Positions 2,656 through 40,443 of a stretch of 43,384 nt of DNA are shown piece by piece. The DNA comes from a virus: positions 1 through 43,384 of the IMG/VR virus record IMGVR_UViG_3300011111_000001. One strand, written 5' to 3'. Made by a program: the position numbers and the translations under genes. Every line of letters begins with the position of its first letter. Position 1 is the first letter of the stretch. The notes beneath the pieces are model-generated. The model saw only the letters and a list, made by a program, of their open reading frames with translations, made no database searches and had not been told where the DNA came from.

Positions 2656-4833
2656 ATGGTAGAGGCTCACCTTGATTTTGAGACACGCTCGGCGCTCGAC
2701 CTTAACAAGGTGGGCCTGATGCCTTACGCCCAACACGACAGTACGGGGGTGTGGGGCTTCAAGTACCGCATAGGCGACGGACCAATGATGCAATGGCGTC
2801 CGGGGTACGACGACCCCCAGCCTATACTAGACCACATAGCGTTTGGTGGCACCTTTATAGCACACAACGCGTCGTTCGAACGCGTGATGTGGAACGAGCT
2901 GCTGCGTAAGCGCCGGGGCTACTCGCACTGGCCGGAACTACACGCGTGGCAGCAAACGTGCACCATGGCGCGCTCGCTAGCGATGAACCTGCCCGGCAAG
3001 CTAGAGGACTTAGGCCCAGCGCTCGGCCTCAACCAGCACAAAGACCTCGAAGGTAAGAAGTTAATGCTCAAGATGTGCAGGCCGCGAGGCGTGGACTTAG
3101 AGGGCAACTACGTGTGGTGGGATGAGCCAGATAAAGTAGAGCGGCTAATGGCGTACTGCGAACAGGACGTCGAGACTGAGACCGCAGTGGACCACAAAGT
3201 GCCCAACCTAACACAGTCGGAACAGTCGCTGTGGGTGTTCGACCAAATCATAAACGAACGAGGTGTGCGCGTGGACCTTAAGGTCGCTGAGCGCGCAGCC
3301 AAGCTCGTGGAGTACGCTAAGAAACAAGCCGACGCACGCATGCGCAAGATAACTAAAGGCGCAGTACGTAAGGTTACCGAAGTAGGCAAGCTCGCGGAGT
3401 GGGTTAACGCGCAAGGCGTAACGTGCGAAGCGGTAAACAAGGGTACGATCAAAGAGCTGCAAGTGGCCTCGTCACTGATGGGTTACCCGGACGTGGCCGA
3501 GGCGCTGACGCTAAGGTCGCACGCGTCTAAGACAAGCACGTCAAAGTATAAGAAAATGATGCAGTGCGCGGCGGATGGGGACGTGTTGTACTTCATGCTC
3601 GCGTTCCACGCTGCGTCCACTGGGCGCTGGGGAGGTAGAGGCGTGCAGCCGCAGAACCTACCGCGCTTTGACGAGGAGAACATCACCGAGGCCATGGCCG
3701 TCGGTTTCTTGGTGGAACTGCTAAACGACGACACGGTGGACATACCGGATGTCTATGAGCTGGTTGACGCGATCTACGGCAGCGTGCTGCTCTGGTGTTC
3801 TAAGGCGCTGCGCAGCATGTTCGTAGCGAGGGAAGGACATGAGTTTTGTGGGGGCGACTTCTCGAACATCGAAGGCCGGGTGAACGCGTGGCTGGCCGGT
3901 GAGCAGTGGAAGCTCAACGCGTTCGAAGCGTACGACGCAGGCGAAGGACCGGACTTGTACAAAGTGTCGTACTCCGCGTCGTTCGGGTGCTTGGTAGACG
4001 CTGTAACAAAGTCAATGCGGCAGATAGGTAAGGTACAAGAACTAGCGTCCGGCTATCAGGGAAGCATAGGCGCGTACCTCTCCATGGCCGACAACTACGG
4101 CATAGACATACACGAACTCGCTGCGGCTGTGCATGAGAACGCCGACAAGGAAGAGTTCGCTGCGATACTAGAGACGTACCCTAAAGCCAAAGACAAGAAA
4201 GGCTTGACGCCTTTCGTGTGGGCTGCGCTAAAGCTGCTAGTCACGCGCTGGCGCGCTGCACACCCGGCCATCGTACAAAGCTGGTGGAACTACCAAGACG
4301 CAGCTATCGAAGCGGTCATGAACCCCGGCACCGTGGTTGACGTGGCGGACATGTCGGACCACGGCTACATGAAGCAGGGCATGGTGCGCTACCTGTGTGA
4401 CGGCAACTACCTGTTCTGCTGTCTCCCAAACAATCGCGTGCTAGCCTACGCCCAACCGACCGTGCACCAGACCAAGGTTACGCGCACTCGCAAAGACGGT
4501 ACTGAATACGAAACGACTAAACGCACCGTACGCTACTGGGGTCGCGATAGCGACAGGGGAGGTAAGTGGAGTGAGCTGAGCCTCTACGGCGGCTTGCAGT
4601 GCGAGAACGTAGTGCAAGCGGTGGCCCGTGACCTACTTGCCGAGGCTATGTTTCGCGTAGAAGACGCTGGGTACAAAGTCATACTTACGGTGCACGACGA
4701 AATACTATCAGAGGTGCCTACGGGCTTTGGCTCCGTCGAGGAGTTCGTACGGTTTATGGAAATAAAAAGCCAGTGGGCAGACGGGCTACCCGTTAAGGTC
4801 GCTGCGTGGAAAGACACGAGGTACGTAAAATGA
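2656..4833 (+). CDS. Family A DNA polymerase with 3'-5' exonuclease domain
   Basis: This 725-aa protein replicates the phage genome. The N-terminus carries the DnaQ-like proofreading motifs: HLDFETRS (Asp7, Glu9), FIAHNASFE, and YCEQDVETE. The polymerase domain shows motif A (GGDFSNIEGR, Asp401), motif B (MRQIGKVQELASGYQG, Lys459) and motif C (VHDEI, Asp681), so both active sites look intact. Length and layout match the phage DNA polymerase I-like enzymes found beside DUF2800 and DUF2815 genes. The start lies 8 bases after the SSB stop with only a weak GGGA ribosome site, so coupling to the upstream gene is plausible. No 5'-3' exonuclease domain is present. Ile codons are mostly ATA, as in other replication genes here. 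Confidence 0.95.
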   Translation: MVEAHLDFETRSALDLNKVGLMPYAQHDSTGVWGFKYRIGDGPMMQWRPGYDDPQPILDHIAFGGTFIAHNASFERVMWNELLRKRRGYSHWPELHAWQQTCTMARSLAMNLPGKLEDLGPALGLNQHKDLEGKKLMLKMCRPRGVDLEGNYVWWDEPDKVERLMAYCEQDVETETAVDHKVPNLTQSEQSLWVFDQIINERGVRVDLKVAERAAKLVEYAKKQADARMRKITKGAVRKVTEVGKLAEWVNAQGVTCEAVNKGTIKELQVASSLMGYPDVAEALTLRSHASKTSTSKYKKMMQCAADGDVLYFMLAFHAASTGRWGGRGVQPQNLPRFDEENITEAMAVGFLVELLNDDTVDIPDVYELVDAIYGSVLLWCSKALRSMFVAREGHEFCGGDFSNIEGRVNAWLAGEQWKLNAFEAYDAGEGPDLYKVSYSASFGCLVDAVTKSMRQIGKVQELASGYQGSIGAYLSMADNYGIDIHELAAAVHENADKEEFAAILETYPKAKDKKGLTPFVWAALKLLVTRWRAAHPAIVQSWWNYQDAAIEAVMNPGTVVDVADMSDHGYMKQGMVRYLCDGNYLFCCLPNNRVLAYAQPTVHQTKVTRTRKDGTEYETTKRTVRYWGRDSDRGGKWSELSLYGGLQCENVVQAVARDLLAEAMFRVEDAGYKVILTVHDEILSEVPTGFGSVEEFVRFMEIKSQWADGLPVKVAAWKDTRYVK

Positions 4834-24571: not shown

Positions 24572-25558
24572 CTAGCCAATGCGCTCGAACAGCTTAAGCA
24601 TCTTCGTCATAGCCGCTTCGTGCTCGGGGTGCGACTTGTCGTTGTACTTAGCGGTGAACGCCGGGTCGCCCATGAGCTTATCGGCCTCGGCCTTAGCCTG
24701 CGCCGAGCTCATGGTGCTGGGGTCATTAGGGTCGCCGCCTTCACCACCGGGACGCGGTAGAGGTTCGCCGCTGCGCATGCCAAGCGTAGTGAACAGCTCG
24801 ACAACGGCTGCCGTACCGATGTTGTTGTCGAGCGCGTCAATCACGTGCTCTGGTACGCCCGCGCGTTTAACGAAGTCCTTGCCCGCCGCTATGGCCGGAT
24901 CGAACTTGTCGCCAAGGTTCGTACGCAGCGCGTTCATGTCTTTTTCGTTCTGGTCACGCCATGCCGCCTCGTTCGCAGCGTTGTATTCTGGTATAAGTTT
25001 GTTCCACACTTCCATGCCAGCCTGCGCCTCGGCGGGGCTAGCGCCAAGCGCGTGGAACACCTGCTTACCGATATTAACAAGGCCGGGGTCGATCTGCACG
25101 TCGTTTGGCAGGTTAAATTCGTACGCGTCAGGCGCTTCTGGGCGTCCCTTCGCTTTGTAGAACGCAGCCATCTGCTCTGGCGTAGCGCCTTCGCCCGGCA
25201 GGTCTACCACGTTAGGGTTGCCGTTCTGTAGCTTGAGCAGGTTGTGGTACGCCATGGCGGCGTCTGCCGGGTTGCTGTAGTTCTTAGCGCGCATGGTCTC
25301 GCGCACACCTTCTTCCTGAATGTGCTCATACCACGGCTTCTCGCCCAGCGTCCATTTGCCGCCCTCGGCTGATTGCCAAGGGAACACCGTCACGCCGTCG
25401 GTTGGTGTTGCTGCCGGTGTAGCCGGTGTAGCAGGTGTAGCGGGTGTAGCAGGTGTAGCGGGTGTAGCAGGTGTAGCGGGTGTAGCAGGTGTAGCCGGGT
25501 CCGCCGTGCTAACTGGAGTAGGTGCAGTCGGGGTCGTTGGGGTGATCGGATCAGACAT
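24572..25558 (-). CDS. Capsid scaffolding protein with N-terminal Pro-Ala-Thr repeat
   Basis: The 328-aa protein precedes the capsid gene, the standard scaffold position. The N-terminus (residues ~6-50) is a disordered Pro/Thr/Ala region with nine ATP-type triplets. The rest is helical, with segments KGRPEAPDAYEFNLP, EYNAANEAAWRDQNEKDMNAL and a C-terminal EHEAAMTKMLKLFERIG helix that probably contacts capsid subunits. The PEAPDAYEF stretch is widely seen in podovirus scaffolds. The protein is acidic overall. It would be lost from the head at maturation. Confidence 0.85.
   Translation of the reverse strand: MSDPITPTTPTAPTPVSTADPATPATPATPATPATPATPATPATPATPAATPTDGVTVFPWQSAEGGKWTLGEKPWYEHIQEEGVRETMRAKNYSNPADAAMAYHNLLKLQNGNPNVVDLPGEGATPEQMAAFYKAKGRPEAPDAYEFNLPNDVQIDPGLVNIGKQVFHALGASPAEAQAGMEVWNKLIPEYNAANEAAWRDQNEKDMNALRTNLGDKFDPAIAAGKDFVKRAGVPEHVIDALDNNIGTAAVVELFTTLGMRSGEPLPRPGGEGGDPNDPSTMSSAQAKAEADKLMGDPAFTAKYNDKSHPEHEAAMTKMLKLFERIG
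25416..25496 (-). repeat. Nine 9-bp tandem repeats in the scaffold gene
   Basis: Units ggtgtagcN (plus-strand view) repeat nine times without interruption. The last base alternates a/g in the middle, giving an 18-bp higher-order unit. They encode the Ala-Thr-Pro triplets. Confidence 0.95.
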
Positions 25559-27890: not shown

Positions 27891-29450
27891 TCAAAGCTCC
27901 ATAGCTAGCGGGTCATCGTGCAGCACCGCTATCGTCTTGTTGGCTAGCGATGCAAACCTGTCACTGTCGCGCCGTGGCACCGTGACTGCAAAGGTCAGCG
28001 CAAGCATATCCCCTTCGTCAGGCGAAGGCAAGCGCCGCTTTTTCATGTCAGCTTTAGCTTCCAGCTTAATGCGCTGCTCGTGCCGGTCCAGCCCGTACAG
28101 TATGTGCACCAAGTCCCTGTACAGCTCCGTCTTCTCCGGGTCTTCGCCTTCCTTAAGGGGTAGGCACCCGCCTTCGTATATCCAGTCCCGCATCAGAGCC
28201 CATATCTCGGCCCTACGGTTAAAGTACAGGTCGAACCTGTGCGCAGCAGCTCCGGGGTGCACTTCTACCACCTTGTACCCTCGGTCCCTTAGCATGTCGA
28301 TCACACCAACGCCCGGCCCGGTGCTCTCTATCACAATCACGTCCGGCTTGTGCTTGTTAGCTTCCATCATGGCTATCTCGGCCACCTTGGTCGTGCTCTG
28401 TCCTTTTATACGTATACACGGTCTAGACCTGTTGTCCCTACCCTGCCGGAAACCTATAACAGTGCTGTCGTCACCGAACCGCGCAACGTCTATCGCCATT
28501 ATAAGCGCGGCACCGCTATCGCCCACAAGAGGCCGCGCCATTGCTTCTACTACAGCGTCCTTGCTAATGAAGCCGTTATACGACTGCGCCGGGAACTCGC
28601 CTTTAACACGTATGCGCACTTCGTCGCTATCGTCACCGTATTTACTTATTATGTGTTTGATGGCTAGCTTGTTCGTGTGGCTGACCTCTCTACTGTCCAC
28701 CTTCATGGTGTAGTACAGGTCTTTGTGTTTGTCGAAGCAATCCGCGAACTCGCCCTCCGGCCTCGTAGGGTTACCGAACGCGAAGAAGAACGCCTCGCCG
28801 TCCGTAAGCGCGCCCTCAGATACCTCCCACACTTTAGGCAATACGCCGGACGCCTCGTCGAACATAATGAACACAGTGCCCGTTTCGTTGTGCAGCCCCG
28901 CAAACGCCTCCGTCTTGTGCTCAGACACCGTGGCGGCGGTGACCATGTAGTTCTTCTGCTTGTCCGCTGGGTACTTCTTAAAGTAGAACGACGTAGCCGT
29001 CCACTCGAACCAATGCTTGTTCATGGCTAGGCTGTGCCACTTGGCTAGTTCAGGCCACGTCTTGTCTTCTAGCTGGAATTGCGTACTCGCGGTTACGACC
29101 CCACGCGTATCCACCCGCGTTGACATTAGGAAGTATATCAGCCACGCTACTATGGCGGACTTCCCTACGCCGTGCCCAGACGCTATGGCGCTGCGCCACA
29201 CTTCCATGTCAAGGCCCATGCCCGCCAACAGCCCGTTCTCGCGTATGTGGTCGCCTATCTGTATTAGTAACTTCTTCTGCCACGGCTCTGGACCGCGCTT
29301 ATTGTGCAGCGGGTTAAACGACCCGTCCGGCAGACACGGCTCGCCCCAAGGGAACACCGCCATGACAAGTCCGTAAGGGTCGTCATAGAACTCCGCTATG
29401 TACGCCGCTAGCGCCTCTTCGGTATCCGTACTTAGCTTAAGGTTGCTCAT
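27891..29450 (-). CDS. terL: Terminase large subunit
   Basis: The 519-aa protein packages DNA into the head. The ATPase has Walker A SGHGVGKS (residues 91-98, Lys97), Walker B VFIMFDEA (Asp198, Glu199), and a coupling-type segment FAFGNPTRPEG. The nuclease domain shows AIDVARFGDDST (Asp321), VIVIESTGPGVGVIDML and the C-terminal PSPDEGDMLALTFAV that supplies a late Asp. All key residues are present. It is the first gene of the minus-strand structural series. Its ATG is only 37 bases from the ATG of the divergent small terminase. A promoter for this operon is not obvious in that gap. Confidence 0.95.
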   Translation of the reverse strand: MSNLKLSTDTEEALAAYIAEFYDDPYGLVMAVFPWGEPCLPDGSFNPLHNKRGPEPWQKKLLIQIGDHIRENGLLAGMGLDMEVWRSAIASGHGVGKSAIVAWLIYFLMSTRVDTRGVVTASTQFQLEDKTWPELAKWHSLAMNKHWFEWTATSFYFKKYPADKQKNYMVTAATVSEHKTEAFAGLHNETGTVFIMFDEASGVLPKVWEVSEGALTDGEAFFFAFGNPTRPEGEFADCFDKHKDLYYTMKVDSREVSHTNKLAIKHIISKYGDDSDEVRIRVKGEFPAQSYNGFISKDAVVEAMARPLVGDSGAALIMAIDVARFGDDSTVIGFRQGRDNRSRPCIRIKGQSTTKVAEIAMMEANKHKPDVIVIESTGPGVGVIDMLRDRGYKVVEVHPGAAAHRFDLYFNRRAEIWALMRDWIYEGGCLPLKEGEDPEKTELYRDLVHILYGLDRHEQRIKLEAKADMKKRRLPSPDEGDMLALTFAVTVPRRDSDRFASLANKTIAVLHDDPLAMEL

Positions 29451-34034: not shown

Positions 34035-34361
34035 ATGCCCCCGGATAACGGCAACAACGGTAACAACGGTAACGGTAACAACGGTAACGGTAACAACGGT
34101 AACGGCAACAACGGCAACAACGGTAACGGTAACGGCAACAACGGTAACGGCAACAACGGCAACAACGGTAATAACGGCAACAACGGTAATAACGGCAATA
34201 AGCCACCGTTCAACCCGTCGCTCACCCGTGCCAAGGGCCGCCAGATGCGCAGCGCACCCCACAACGTGGTTAAGCGTGTCACGCGGGTTAATGGCCGCGA
34301 CCACGTTGTGATAATGCTAGCTGACGGGGGCCCGCAGCCTTTCCGTTACTATGAAGATTGA
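34035..34361 (+). CDS. Asn-Gly repeat protein with basic C-terminal domain
   Basis: The 108-aa protein consists of MPPD, a 51-residue run of NGN/NNG repeats (residues 5-55), and a ~50-residue basic domain (SLTRAKGRQMRSAPHNVVKRV, HVVIMLADGGPQPFRYYED; quoted in parts). AAGGAG 8 bases before the ATG supports the start. The repeat is purely Asn/Gly, likely disordered or amyloid-prone, and is encoded by alternating aacggt/aacggc/aac units. The basic end could bind nucleic acid. No family is recognised. The frame is preferred over antisense Leu-Pro frames because it has the ribosome site and operon position. Confidence 0.7.
   Translation: MPPDNGNNGNNGNGNNGNGNNGNGNNGNNGNGNGNNGNGNNGNNGNNGNNGNNGNKPPFNPSLTRAKGRQMRSAPHNVVKRVTRVNGRDHVVIMLADGGPQPFRYYED
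34047..34199 (+). repeat. Low-complexity aac/ggt codon repeat
   Basis: The 153 bases are built only from AAC/AAT and GGT/GGC codons in 6- and 9-base units. Copy-number change by slippage is likely in such a tract. Confidence 0.9.
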
Positions 34362-34379
34362 GCGTGCATAACAAACTTG

Positions 34380-34409
34380 TTGACACAACGCCCCGCGCTA
34401 CTGTATTAA
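34380..34409 (+). promoter_or_regulatory. Promoter for the 34.46-kb gene
   Basis: Perfect TTGACA at 34380-34385, then TATTAA at 34404-34409 (18-base spacer; other registers possible). The element CGTGCATAAC, shared with other promoters here, lies just upstream at 34363. Confidence 0.6.
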
Positions 34410-34431
34410 CGTACATGAAGCGCGGGGCGTT
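34387..34431. repeat. 13-bp perfect inverted repeat across the promoter
   Basis: AACGCCCCGCGCT (34387-34399) is exactly complementary to AGCGCGGGGCGTT (34419-34431). The left arm fills the promoter spacer and the right arm lies at the expected transcription start. It is a candidate operator, or a terminator-like hairpin for transcripts entering from upstream (no T-tract). Confidence 0.8.
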
Positions 34432-34463
34432 CTGCTACGTGCACTACGTAAGAGGGCTACACA

Positions 34464-34784
34464 ATGACCAAAGTGTTGATTAGATCGTACCGCACCGAAC
34501 CGCTCAAAGGTAAGGCTGTTGCTATCTTCCCCGAGCTGTCTGCATCACGTGACGGTAGCAAAATGGTCTGCTACGACCAAGAGGGCCACAACTCTATGAG
34601 CCTTGGCGCTATGGTAGAGCTTACAGAACGAACCGACGATTGCGACATTCAGGCGATGGTGCTTAACCGTCTTAGCAGCATTGGCTACCAAGACTTGGAG
34701 CTGGTGCAGGACTTCACCGTTGCCATGTACACCGAGCGCAAAGCACAGGCCGCCAAGGACTGGGCCGCTTGCGCTAACTCCTAA
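34464..34784 (+). CDS. Hypothetical protein, 106 aa
   Basis: The protein begins MTKVLIRSYRTEPLKGKAVA and appears to be a compact alpha/beta fold with an acidic middle (ELTERTDDCDIQAM) and a helical C-terminus (YTERKAQAAKDWAACANS). AGAGGG lies upstream of the ATG, and a promoter with operator-like repeat precedes it. Its stop codon is the first base region of a 70-bp direct repeat. No family was recognised. An early host-takeover or regulatory role is only suggested by position. Confidence 0.65.
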   Translation: MTKVLIRSYRTEPLKGKAVAIFPELSASRDGSKMVCYDQEGHNSMSLGAMVELTERTDDCDIQAMVLNRLSSIGYQDLELVQDFTVAMYTERKAQAAKDWAACANS

Positions 34785-34851
34785 GCTGTCTTTCGATGCG
34801 CCTCACCTACCGGGGCGTATCAATGGACAACTAAGAGGGTTACATCATGAA
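34782..34851 (+). repeat. 70-bp direct repeat, copy 1 (stop-to-start leader)
   Basis: The copy is identical to 35232-35301 over 70 bases. It runs from the TAA of the upstream gene to the ATGAA of the next, and includes an imperfect hairpin (gatgcgcc / ggcgtatc) and the ribosome site AAGAGGG. It therefore works as a 5' leader in both places. Confidence 0.97.
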
Positions 34852-34963
34852 CTGGTACAGGATAACAAAGAGCGACTACTACGCGCGTGGTGCCATGCGC
34901 AACCCGGACCTAATGCGCAAGGCGGACGCAAAAGGCCGTTGGAAATACTACGCTAAACACTAA
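34847..34963 (+). CDS. Small basic protein, 38 aa
   Basis: The ORF starts at the ATG inside the 70-bp repeat leader and ends in TAA. It is rich in Lys, Arg, Tyr and Trp (MNWYRITKSDYYARGAMRN, ending GRWKYYAKH). The duplicated leader with its ribosome site argues that this short frame is translated. No family is recognised. A small nucleic-acid- or protein-binding inhibitor is possible. Confidence 0.6.
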   Translation: MNWYRITKSDYYARGAMRNPDLMRKADAKGRWKYYAKH

Positions 34964-34979
34964 GCAATGGGAGTACCAA

Positions 34980-35234
34980 ATGACACACATTAAGCTAACC
35001 AACCCGACGGGGCGCAGTACAGAAGCCCGCGTGCTTGAGTACAATGGCGACGAATACTTCTTTAGCTACCAGACTTGCGTGGCCTTTCGGGGTATTGCGT
35101 CGGACAAACAGTACCGCAAGATTAAACGCAAGAACAAATGGGGGCGCACCACGAGCAAACACTTTAAGGAGATGGGGTGCGCAGACTTCCAAGAGATTGA
35201 GGACGCGGACACGTTCGCCGCGCTACTCCCTTAA
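34980..35234 (+). CDS. Hypothetical phage protein, 84 aa
   Basis: The sequence (MTHIKLTNPTGRSTEARVLE, YFFSYQTCVAFRGIA, and WGRTTSKHFKEMG) follows a pattern I associate with small conserved phage proteins: an N-terminal sheet with a T-G-R-x-TEA turn, a central SYxTxVAF strand, and a TTSKH motif near the end. The 307-aa protein at 36522 contains a related STAKH motif, so the two may share a fold. The ATG follows GGGAG eight bases away. Function unknown. Confidence 0.68.
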   Translation: MTHIKLTNPTGRSTEARVLEYNGDEYFFSYQTCVAFRGIASDKQYRKIKRKNKWGRTTSKHFKEMGCADFQEIEDADTFAALLP

Positions 35235-35301
35235 GCTGTCTTTCGATGCGCCTCACCTACCGGGGCGTATCAATGGACAACTAAGAGGGTTACATCATGA
35301 A
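35232..35301 (+). repeat. 70-bp direct repeat, copy 2 (stop-to-start leader)
   Basis: Identical to 34782-34851, 450 bases downstream, again joining a TAA to the next gene's ATGAA. Confidence 0.97.
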
Positions 35302-35560
35302 AATAACTATCAAAGTTCTACCCGAGGGCTGGCGCGACGAGCTTAACGCCACATACCGCCAACGCCCAGCCGCAGCGGACGCGCTGCGCCGCGTGGTTGA
35401 CGTGCTGACCCGCAGCCAAGCCGAGGCAGACACTAAGCTAGGGCTCAAAGCTCACAGCGAAGCGCGGCGCGTTGCGTCCATGATCGAAAACCACAGCGCG
35501 GGTGGCACCGTTCAGGTGCGGGACTATACTGTAATCGCCACGGTGTCACGCCATGCGTAA
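35297..35560 (+). CDS. Hypothetical protein, 87 aa
   Basis: Translation starts within copy 2 of the 70-bp leader. The protein has a short N-terminal strand (KITIKVLPEGW), a long helical and charged region (ADALRRVVDVLTRSQAEADTK, quoted in part) and C-terminal strands (GTVQVRDYTVIATVSRHA). No family is recognised. The next ORF's ATG lies inside its last codons. It shares its leader, but no protein similarity, with the 38-aa gene. Confidence 0.62.
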   Translation: MKITIKVLPEGWRDELNATYRQRPAAADALRRVVDVLTRSQAEADTKLGLKAHSEARRVASMIENHSAGGTVQVRDYTVIATVSRHA

Positions 35561-36521: not shown

Positions 36522-37445
36522 ATGTCTAGAACTCACAACGAAGTCGCGCACCTTTGGGCAAACGGTACCCGCACTAACCTACGCGGCTTTAATATGTTTA
36601 GTGACGGCAGCACCATCTACAGCTACGGCCGCCACTTCCCGATAGCCCGTAAGCTTGGGACTACATACAACAACTGCGAAGTTGTGCTGTTTAACTCCAA
36701 TGGTTACAGCGTCAGCACAGCGAAACATAAAACCATCGTGTATCGCGCGCTCAACCGCGACACGTTTAAGATATTCACAGTGCCGAACGTGCAACCTGCT
36801 AACTGTGAATGGACGCGCGACCTTAGCCCAGAGCTGCATGCCGAAAACGTACAAGCGTATTGCGCCGACATTCTGGACTACATCGAAAAGGCAGAACGCG
36901 CTAGAAAGCACGGGCATTACCATGCGCGCCGCGCACAAGACATGCTAATTGAGCTAAACGAGTACGTAGACGCGTTTGGCCTTGGCAGCCCGGATATAGA
37001 CGTTCATAGCCTACAGCAGCGCGCCGAACAGATGCTATCCGTTGCTCAGAGAGCGCGACGCCTTGACGACGAGCGCCGTGCGGCGCGTAGCGAAGAGCTA
37101 GCGCAACAGTGGGCGGAGGGCGCGTCGACTGAATGCCCCCATACGCCGGTCCCATACGTGCGCGTCAATGGTAATCTGATCGAGACCTCTTGGGGTGCTA
37201 AAATCCCGCTCAGGACGGGCTTGTTGCTCTTGGACATGGCTACCCGGTGCCGAGATGGTCAAAAGGCCTTCACGCCCGATAAAAAGCACCCTGTGGGCGC
37301 GTTCTATCTGGATCGGATCGACGCGGACGGGACTTTACACGTCGGCTGTCACCATCTGCCTTATGACCGCTTGTATAGCGCGGCCATGATAGCAGGTGCT
37401 GAGCTCGTGCCGTCGGGCTTTTGGCGTATACCAGAAAGCGCGTAG
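36522..37445 (+). CDS. Conserved-looking phage protein of unknown function, 307 aa
   Basis: The N-terminal ~90 residues (VAHLWANGTR, GFNMFSDGSTIYSYGRHFPIA, VVLFNSNGYSVSTAKH, each quoted in part) follow a pattern I have seen in many hypothetical phage proteins: an H-x-WA start, a TIYSYGxHFPxA core and a STxKH strand. The middle (residues ~115-200) is a long charged helical region. The last ~100 residues hold a second beta domain (PYVRVNGNLIETSWGAKIPL). The ATG at 36522 has AAAAGGAA eight bases upstream; an ATG six codons earlier lies in the previous gene. Function unknown. Confidence 0.75.
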   Translation: MSRTHNEVAHLWANGTRTNLRGFNMFSDGSTIYSYGRHFPIARKLGTTYNNCEVVLFNSNGYSVSTAKHKTIVYRALNRDTFKIFTVPNVQPANCEWTRDLSPELHAENVQAYCADILDYIEKAERARKHGHYHARRAQDMLIELNEYVDAFGLGSPDIDVHSLQQRAEQMLSVAQRARRLDDERRAARSEELAQQWAEGASTECPHTPVPYVRVNGNLIETSWGAKIPLRTGLLLLDMATRCRDGQKAFTPDKKHPVGAFYLDRIDADGTLHVGCHHLPYDRLYSAAMIAGAELVPSGFWRIPESA

Positions 37446-37453
37446 TTTTCACC

Positions 37454-37477
37454 GTGCGCACCTTGAGGGGTGCGTAC
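37454..37477 (+). other. Hairpin after the 307-aa gene
   Basis: GTGCGCACC (37454-37462) pairs with GGTGCGTAC (37469-37477) with one G-T pair and a six-base loop. It lies in the short gap before the next small gene and lacks a T-tract, so an mRNA stabiliser or attenuator is more likely than a full terminator. Confidence 0.5.
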
Positions 37478-37509
37478 GTATGAACACTGCACAACTAGGA
37501 GGGCGGGAT

Positions 37510-37743
37510 ATGCCTATATACCATAAGAGTTCAGCGAACCATAGAACCCCTGAGCGAGGATATACTATGTGCCTGCGCGCGGGCACGGTATCGCTACAGC
37601 AGCGGGGCCCAGACGATTTTATAGTCCGTTACGGCATGCAAGTAACCGACGGGCTAGGCTACGCGCACGCTGCTAAAGAGCTAGGCCAATGCCTTATGCA
37701 TCAAGCCGCGTGCGGTGGTAAGCTAGATAACGCGGGGGGTTAG
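37510..37743 (+). CDS. Hypothetical protein, 77 aa
   Basis: The ATG at 37510 is preceded by AGGAGGG with good spacing; another in-frame ATG at 37480 (87 aa) is possible. The protein contains CLRAGTVSLQQRGPDDFIV and a VTDGLGYAHAAKELGQCLM helix, so it may be a compact alpha/beta domain. It has a few Cys but no CxxC pair. No family is recognised. It ends three bases before the zinc-ribbon gene. Confidence 0.58.
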   Translation: MPIYHKSSANHRTPERGYTMCLRAGTVSLQQRGPDDFIVRYGMQVTDGLGYAHAAKELGQCLMHQAACGGKLDNAGG

Positions 37744-38848: not shown

Positions 38849-39226
38849 ATGGATTTTAAGATCGAAAAGAACATCCCGGTACCGGCTGCGACTTCAAGCA
38901 CGCAAGACGCGAAGTACCCGCTTGACGACATGGAAGTCGGCGACAGCTTCCTTATCCCGGTCGAAGTACCGGCCAGCGTTAAAGGCGACAAAGAACGCGC
39001 TGCTGCATTTGCTGATGAAGTCAAGACCTTCAAAAACCGCTTGACCGGCGCGTTTGGCCGCTACCGCAAGAAAGACGGCAACCAAGCCAAGCGCTTTGTC
39101 AACCGCACCGTCGAAGGTGGCGTGCGTGCGTTCCGCGTCGAAGACCGCAAGACAACTGCCGCGCCGAACGTGGCAGCCCCGAAGCCCCCAGTGGCCCCGA
39201 AGCCCCCAGCGGTGAAGGGTAAGTAA
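38849..39226 (+). CDS. Hypothetical protein of a conserved phage type, 125 aa
   Basis: The protein contains YPLDDMEVGDSFLIPVEV, the kind of motif seen in small phage proteins with a YP-x-x-x-MEVGDSF core, then FGRYRKKDGNQAKRFVNRTV and EGGVRAFRVE, which fits a small DNA-binding-like sheet. It ends in a Pro/Lys-rich tail (APKPPVAPKPP). All Ile codons are ATC, marking high expression. GGAG lies 8 bases before the ATG and a promoter 50 bases upstream; a terminator follows. It is thus a single-gene transcript with possible read-through. Function unknown. Confidence 0.75.
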   Translation: MDFKIEKNIPVPAATSSTQDAKYPLDDMEVGDSFLIPVEVPASVKGDKERAAAFADEVKTFKNRLTGAFGRYRKKDGNQAKRFVNRTVEGGVRAFRVEDRKTTAAPNVAAPKPPVAPKPPAVKGK

Positions 39227-39244
39227 CCCCACCCAACGCCGCGT

Positions 39245-39281
39245 AGCCCCGACGTCTCTCCCTGCGTCGGGGCTTTATTTT
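39245..39281 (+). terminator. Rho-independent terminator
   Basis: AGCCCCGAC (39245-39253) pairs with GTCGGGGCT (39266-39274) and is followed by TTATTTTT. It separates the 125-aa gene from the 379-aa gene. Confidence 0.92.
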
Positions 39282-39303
39282 TCCCTAAGCTAGGAAAGAA
39301 ACC

Positions 39304-40443
39304 ATGGAAACTCTAACGCTCGAAGGACTGGTCGGCAGCAAAGACGACATCATGGCCGAAATGCTGCGGCACCCGTCGGTAAATGGCAAGAAAAGCGTAA
39401 CGCCAGAGACGGCGCTTAAGGCAGCCTACAACGCGGTCGAGAACGCCGTGATCGTTAACGTACAGGCCATGCTACAGCCTCAGCTTAACGAAGCGTACGA
39501 CCTGCACTGTATGATCTCTGGCGGCCCGGATGATATCACCGACGCCAACGCTGACGACTGGCACGAAGCCCTCGACACTGCGATTGAGAACGCGGTGCAG
39601 CCATACAACGAGTACCTCTCGCAGGACTGGCTTGGTAAGAACACAATCGACACGCGTGCGCACGAGCAAGGGCGCATAGAAGCCATCGCGAAGAGCGCGG
39701 CTATGGAATGCTTTAAGCAGGTGTGTAGCACCCGCAAGCCCGGACAAGTTCTTGCGGCTGTTGGTATCCTTAAGTCCGATGTCGAGGCCGTGCTGGAAAG
39801 CGTGACAGACGACGATAACGCCGACGCGCAGCCCATGGCCGTGCAAGCGCTCAAAGAGATCGCGTCGGTGCTGTCCATCTTCTACGTGAGCGCCGACACT
39901 TTTGACTTCGCTAACTTGAAGGACGAACTTGACAGCCTCACCGGCACCGACGAGGTGCTATCTGGCGGGGCGGCTTCACGTCTGGAAGTCAACGAAGACG
40001 GCATGCGCGCTTTGACCAAGTACCGCAACGTACTGGCGTCCGGCGGCAACGGCGACCCGATGCAAGAACTCGTTGGCATGGTCGAGGCGCTGCTCGAAAA
40101 CCCATCGGCATACGACGACCTGCTGGTCAGCGCGGCCAAAGCTGCTAAGGCAGAGAAGCCAAAGCGCAACACCGCCAAAGGCAAGGAAGCGGCAGCGGCA
40201 GACGCTGCGGCCAACGGTCTCGACCCCGAAGTGCTAGCCATCCTCAAGGCGCGTACCACGGTGAAAGACAAAGACATTGGCGAACAGCTCGGTATGTCCC
40301 GCGCGTCGTTCAACAACAAGTGCAACGGCAAGGGCGACCCCATCACCGAGCCAGAGCACAAGCGCATAATTCGGGACATCCTGATTGAGTTCCGAGACGA
40401 CCTTACCCGCGCCGTTGAGCTTATCGGCGACATCGACGCGTGA
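39304..40443 (+). CDS. Unknown 379-aa protein with C-terminal helix-turn-helix-like region
   Basis: The protein is acidic and helical over ~270 residues, has a Lys/Ala-rich linker (AAKAAKAEKPKRNTAKGKEA), and ends with a compact helical part. There, VKDKDIGEQLGMSRASFNNK (residues ~315-335) reads like a helix-turn-helix. DNA binding through the C-terminus and another role for the N-terminus are inferred. Of 20 Ile codons 14 are ATC and only 2 ATA, so it is in the optimised class with the capsid gene. AGGAAAG precedes the ATG; the GTG of the next gene overlaps its stop. No family is recognised. Confidence 0.75.
   Translation: METLTLEGLVGSKDDIMAEMLRHPSVNGKKSVTPETALKAAYNAVENAVIVNVQAMLQPQLNEAYDLHCMISGGPDDITDANADDWHEALDTAIENAVQPYNEYLSQDWLGKNTIDTRAHEQGRIEAIAKSAAMECFKQVCSTRKPGQVLAAVGILKSDVEAVLESVTDDDNADAQPMAVQALKEIASVLSIFYVSADTFDFANLKDELDSLTGTDEVLSGGAASRLEVNEDGMRALTKYRNVLASGGNGDPMQELVGMVEALLENPSAYDDLLVSAAKAAKAEKPKRNTAKGKEAAAADAAANGLDPEVLAILKARTTVKDKDIGEQLGMSRASFNNKCNGKGDPITEPEHKRIIRDILIEFRDDLTRAVELIGDIDA

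Follow-up and report, generated by a model that had tools for sequence, protein, structure and literature searches.

The window analysed here, a stretch of 43,384 bases taken from an IMG/VR virus record, is, judged from its gene content, a podovirus-like genome. Its terminase and adjoining structural genes are similar to their counterparts in Vibrio phage 1.185.O and Pseudomonas phage AF, a likeness drawn partly from reading the translations of the open reading frames. The structural genes run leftward, and the early and replication genes run rightward from about 34.4 kb. Between co-directional small genes, 5' of the replication genes, lie two copies of a 70-bp repeat, both on the plus strand as are the genes around them. 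Copy 1 (34782..34851) extends from the TAA of a 106-aa early gene (34464..34784), which is without a family match, to the ATGAA of a 38-aa gene (34847..34963). Copy 2 (35232..35301) extends from the TAA of an 84-aa gene (34980..35234) to the ATGAA of an 87-aa gene (35297..35560). The 84-aa product matches phrog_5643 (E 7e-6), a family of unknown function; for the 38-aa and 87-aa proteins no homologue and no Pfam or PHROG match was found. A sequence-only reading of this DNA had described two perfect 70-bp copies, 450 bases apart and running from stop to ATGAA, in front of two unrelated small genes. Coordinates and 100% identity over 70 nt were verified, and a protein comparison agrees that the two downstream products are mutually unrelated. 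Low-complexity arrays aside, the repeat is the longest in the window, and chance does not account for two perfect copies of a 70-mer within 43 kb. We infer that the transcript carrying these leaders is early and polycistronic.

Before the first early gene, positions 34379-34431 hold a TTGACA and, behind it, a G+C-rich inverted repeat of 13 bp (AACGCCCCGCGCT...AGCGCGGGGCGTT), a possible early promoter with an operator-like dyad. Upstream of it a 108-aa open reading frame (34035-34361) consists in its first half of an Asn-Gly repeat (NGNNGN...) encoded by an array of 9/15-base repeats, where L003, a contig of the same phage, breaks. An in-frame array of 9-base repeats at 25386-25538 likewise gives rise to a (TPA)n stretch in the open reading frame at 24572-25558. 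In Vibrio phage 1.185.O (L041), the annotated 'CRISPR spacers' at 28101-28318 lie within a 27-base tandem repeat in the coding sequence of NVP1185O_27, and this looks like a coding repeat rather than a CRISPR array.

The RNA of the 70-bp leader is predicted to form an irregular hairpin of the type 2bp-[1x1]-5bp-[3x3]-10bp with a loop of 7 nt. Its predicted arms of 21 nt span about two helical turns, with the 1x1 and 3x3 elements as interruptions, and at -23.3 kcal/mol and a z-score of -3.4 none of 200 shuffles was as good. The first base of the hairpin (34784-34832 in copy 1) is the last A of the upstream UAA, and two bases separate its end from the core of the Shine-Dalgarno sequence (SD), AAGAGGG; the ribosome site and, as a prediction, the hairpin of the sequence-only reading are borne out. 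Several other roles were considered for the leader and rejected. There is no terminator-like site in either copy, the stem being followed by AAGAGGG and not by a U run, and none of seven promoter-like matches for sigma-70 falls inside a copy. Stop-codon readthrough, for which the frame in the two identical copies is open until a TGA overlapping the next ATG, was discarded because in many other leaders a second stop follows the first immediately or within a short distance. The proposed binding of phage HTH proteins found no backing either, as nothing points to it.

A third leader (37443..37509, plus strand) lies 3' of a 313-aa gene and comprises an upstream TAG, a hairpin at 37443-37489 and the SD context ACAACTAGGAGGG, followed by an ATG at 37510; a second in-frame ATG is located at 37480. 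Its stem is unrelated in sequence to that of the 70-bp leader and alike in architecture (4bp-[1x1]-4bp-[1x2]-11bp), and the SD context ACAACTARGAGGG is common to both. The z-score is -5.3 for positions 37443-37490 and -2.6 for the full 70 nt, and the base of this helix is less certain because its basal part competes with another fold in the 70-nt context. In the rest of the window, no match to the leader rises above the shuffled level except for the SD contexts near 37493 and at 34450. The latter, AAGAGGGCTACACAATG (34450..34466, plus strand), is common to the 70-bp leader and precedes the 106-aa gene, and the hairpin upstream of it is not anchored to a stop codon. Note that two identical copies hold no covariation of their own, so that support for pairing has to come from the third leader and from relatives.

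Nucleotide-level queries of phage, plasmid and viral collections, made with the leader or the sequence around it, returned no homologue, and neither did a search for the degenerate mini-ORF pattern in genome contigs. A leader search across 20 terminase relatives was equally without a match, as would be anticipated where only the shape of an element is conserved, and repeated leaders were not found in the terminase relatives Vibrio phage 1.185.O and Pseudomonas phage AF. Further relatives were recruited by alignment of the SNF2-type helicase, and 14, with 47-58% helicase identity, were examined (L043 and L050 are one record, and L048 is nearly identical to L046). Looking for the leader in related phages, as the sequence-only reading had suggested, thus failed at the level of sequence, but leaders of the same fold, with hairpins anchored to a stop codon, are present in 7 of the 14 helicase relatives (L043, L044, L046, L047, L049, L053 and L057). 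Together with the three of the window this gives 27 leaders, the 24 from relatives including two entries with unclear flanks, L044 2001 and 1225 (the latter also listed as 1226), to which no SD and ATG were assigned. Of the relatives with an early region, L043 is the nearest (helicase identity 53%); it carries its own set of six leaders, one at each of six junctions, and these are variants with compensatory changes in the stem. Further repeated leaders are present in L058, where the prediction is firm for the apical stem alone and the base is less certain. The other seven of the 14 have no stop-anchored leader by the criterion used, several of them with little early DNA: little upstream DNA is available for L048, L051 and L055, and L045, L052 and L054 show no stop-anchored leaders. 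From phage to phage, the genes that follow the leaders are for the most part not homologous.

Some further repeats and hairpins were observed in the same genomes. A second, unrelated repeated leader (ACTTGACAACGGATTAATG...AATTAATCTG.ACAAGTCG) precedes an SD and ATG in L044 at 724-781 and 2064-2121, and L057 carries an identical direct repeat of 36 nt (4368-4403 and 4534-4569, 166 nt apart), the second copy of which ends just past a predicted ATG (4565). A conserved gene of 379-407 aa is preceded by a strong hairpin in the window (39224-39304) and in several relatives (L043 6209, L044 4741, L046 1743, L047 2866, L048 459, L058 6157). With a clear T run behind it in the window, L044 and L047, this hairpin resembles an intrinsic terminator inside the early operon.

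The 27 leaders share a common architecture. The helix arms measure 19-24 nt, in a fold window of 48-58 nt that bounds the detectable arm lengths, and, counted from the first base of the upstream stop, the helix begins with a pair at a distance of 0-4 nt, in most cases still within the stop codon. Nearly all have a 1x1 mismatch close to the base of the helix, and their apical stems begin between +9 and +15 relative to the stop, generally at about +13. A stop-anchored hairpin was scored at 26 of the 143 sense junctions with an SD-led start, against an expected 5.2 from dinucleotide shuffles, and at none of 44 antisense pseudo-junctions. These counts come from the stricter test only, as a loose criterion also caught junctions of spurious open reading frames. 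A few of the 26 junctions lie outside the repeated families, for example L043:13254 and L057:20561.

The stems differ between copies and between phages, and pairing is retained. Owing to misplaced gaps in the MAFFT alignments of the L043 and L044 leaders, column counts understate covariation, and an arm-swapping test was adopted for this reason. Self-paired arms were far more stable than chimeras of different copies in L044 (-34.5 vs -19.1 kcal/mol), L053 (-21.0 vs -8.9 kcal/mol) and L043 (-25.9 vs -13.2 kcal/mol), while the contrast was weak for L046/L047 (-33.1 vs -30.0 kcal/mol), where the copies are similar. The leaders L046:240 and L047:1220, which occupy orthologous junctions inside a stretch of 87% identity, differ by two double compensatory changes and by changes in the loop; this difference could alternatively have arisen by gene conversion from another copy. 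That relatives carry repeated hairpins of their own at early junctions, base-paired and of differing sequence, lends good support to the selection for a shared control element that the sequence-only reading had invoked. Recent duplication had been offered there as the alternative to selection; both fit, but not as alternatives, since identity within a genome and phage-specific families are also compatible with duplication or gene conversion.

Among described repeated elements associated with start codons, the extended start-associated sequences (ESAS) of cluster K mycobacteriophages are the closest. These are repeated directly before the starts of non-structural genes, with a consensus that varies by subcluster, and consist of an imperfect 17-bp inverted repeat and a conserved ribosome-site sequence, located in larger gaps (PMC3203893). 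The leaders resemble them as start-associated repeats with an imperfect inverted repeat just upstream of the ribosome-site sequence, here with arms of 21 nt that end 2 nt before the SD core. An identity with the cluster K SAS was rejected, however, as its 13-bp core GGGATAGGAGCCC is absent, with 0 matches at up to 2 mismatches. The copy number also differs, with 2-3 leaders here and 11-19 SAS sites in cluster K. Moreover, pairing is supported in the leaders, which are tied to the upstream stop, unlike the ESAS, for which the cluster K authors considered an RNA hairpin poorly supported (PMC3203893).

A similar arrangement is found in the isolated Rhizobium phage RHph_N65 (MN988536), where a near-identical leader (89% over 65 nt) stands before two adjacent small genes, at the junctions after EVC08_055 and EVC08_054, with the hairpin beginning in the UGA stop. 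The leader sequence differs from that of the window, its fold is weaker (z -1.7 to -1.9) and the helicase is only 31% identical; with a stop-anchored leader occurring twice in an isolated phage, the arrangement is nevertheless not confined to metagenome assemblies. An Rfam search of the window region up to E 1 gave one chance-level match elsewhere and none at the gathering threshold, the glnA and Downstream-peptide aptamers that a DUF4278 / glutamine-riboswitch peptide calls for being without a match up to E 1, and L043, L044, L047 and L053 were without any Rfam match. No described equivalent in such phages was found in the literature searched, which is weak evidence.

The nearest functional precedent is found in phage T7. 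Run on T7, the leader script picked two junctions that are known RNase III sites, 0.4/0.5, with 18 pairs and at offset 0 from the stop, and 0.7/1, at offset 4. Like the leaders, the T7 sites R0.3, R0.5, R1, R1.1 and R1.3 are hairpins of irregular shape, with internal loops and about 20 pairs, situated between early genes and followed by the next SD, with several per genome whose sequence is partly repeated among themselves. R1.1, for example, which separates early genes, forms a hairpin of 60 nt that contains an internal loop (PMC6121014). The irregular stem of about two turns, interrupted by an internal loop or mismatches, that characterizes the T7 type is also found in the predicted fold of the leaders. 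The site at 0.4/0.5 begins at the stop codon as the leaders do, but R1.1 and R1.3 are not anchored in this way, so that anchoring is no hallmark of T7 whereas it is the rule in the leaders. The leader sequences are unrelated to those of T7, and the two copies in the window are perfectly identical, unlike the T7 sites. No T7-like RNA polymerase gene was noticed in reading through the large open reading frames of the window. The T7 sites are cut by RNase III, both in vitro and in vivo, and the leaders are likened to them by predicted fold and position.

With this precedent of two-turn interrupted hairpins between early phage genes, RNase III processing is the best-supported function, and we assign a probability of roughly one half to the reading that the leaders are intercistronic processing signals by which a multigene early message is punctuated, with the RNase III of the host as the probable enzyme. 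In this reading RNase III would cleave the long early transcript at every leader junction. The upstream message would then keep a 3'-end stem directly behind its stop codon, and the downstream message would receive a short 5' end on which the SD lies free. The basal helix should be opened by a ribosome that terminates on the upstream gene, and folding and cutting of the leader could thereby be gated by upstream translation. Copies within a genome may be kept alike through duplication or gene conversion. Note that any function requiring a hairpin at this position would give the same pattern.

Given the link between element and stop codon, translational coupling is a serious contender and the main rival, although we hold it to be unlikely. 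Here the hairpin would fold out the spacer so that the upstream stop meets the downstream SD and terminating ribosomes re-initiate; in the window, the SD can additionally pair with CUCC/CCUU just upstream of it. Anchoring to the stop and the usually short distance to the SD fit this, and the apical stem at about 13 nt from the stop would roughly coincide with the front edge of a terminating ribosome, as inferred from known footprints. However, the distance from helix end to SD ranges from 0 to 17 nt, a loose range for a device that is to position the SD, coupling between phage genes normally requires no hairpin, and pairing of the SD is inconstant among the predicted folds of the relatives. 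Improbable in our view is a role without cutting by RNase III, as a stabiliser of 3' ends against 3' exonucleases or as an RNA site bound by a phage or host protein. Strong hairpins right at gene ends would suit either function, and in L044 the loop GTTTAAAC is constant where the stems vary, but both loops and stems are unrelated between phages, leaving no common binding sequence, and a pure stabiliser could pair perfectly where internal loops and mismatches are in fact kept.

The repeat might also serve mainly as a recombination seam for the gain and loss of gene cassettes in a hypervariable early region, with the hairpin being incidental. The small genes flanked by leaders are mostly non-homologous, and direct repeats 450 bp apart would permit the loss of the 38-aa and 84-aa genes, the cassette that the sequence-only reading had put forward. 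The geometry allows for this, but the 450-bp deletion occurs in no relative or sister contig, nor was any other deletion or insertion event seen. Some copies in L044 and L053 are too dissimilar for efficient homologous recombination and yet retain the fold, and compensatory changes are left unexplained, so that we consider this reading quite improbable. Very improbable is a leader peptide, by which an ATG within the leader opens a 12-codon reading frame (MRLTYRGVSMDN) resembling the N-terminus of DUF4278. This is the sole Pfam match of the single peptide (E 0.16), but its 12.8 bits fall below the curated cut-off of 25.3 bits, a value of E 2e-4 stems from an artificially doubled peptide, and the ATG has no SD. 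The DUF4278 peptide was rejected because nothing similar is encoded by the third leader of the window or by those of the relatives.

That one copy was duplicated in assembly is scarcely credible: of the contigs of the same phage from apparently related metagenomes, L003 stops at 34072 and L040 starts at 35270 inside copy 2, so that neither spans both copies, and no further contig with the interval was found, but the copies have distinct, unique flanks and fit exactly to stop and start codons, and relatives from other samples show the pattern of repeated leaders as well. The differences of L040 are concentrated at the contig ends and look like sequencing errors.

RNase III processing of the leaders, if true, would mean that T7-like message processing exists in another phage lineage. 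In a broader and more tentative proposal, which we regard as possible, the leaders may represent a new element, a stop-codon-anchored RNA hairpin of tailed phages that is absent from Rfam, with about 22 positions, a mismatch near its base and, some 13 nt from the stop, an apical stem. Through this element, processing or downstream initiation would be gated by the terminating ribosome. It would exist as phage-specific sequence families, homogenised within a genome and spread over fast-changing junctions of early genes. The early regions of such phages contain many small genes without homologues, and a punctuation element conserved in shape and not in sequence would mark their true gene junctions and the direction of reading. 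The many stop-anchored hairpins of the same architecture and different sequence would then constitute a natural experiment for the coupling of translation termination and RNA processing.
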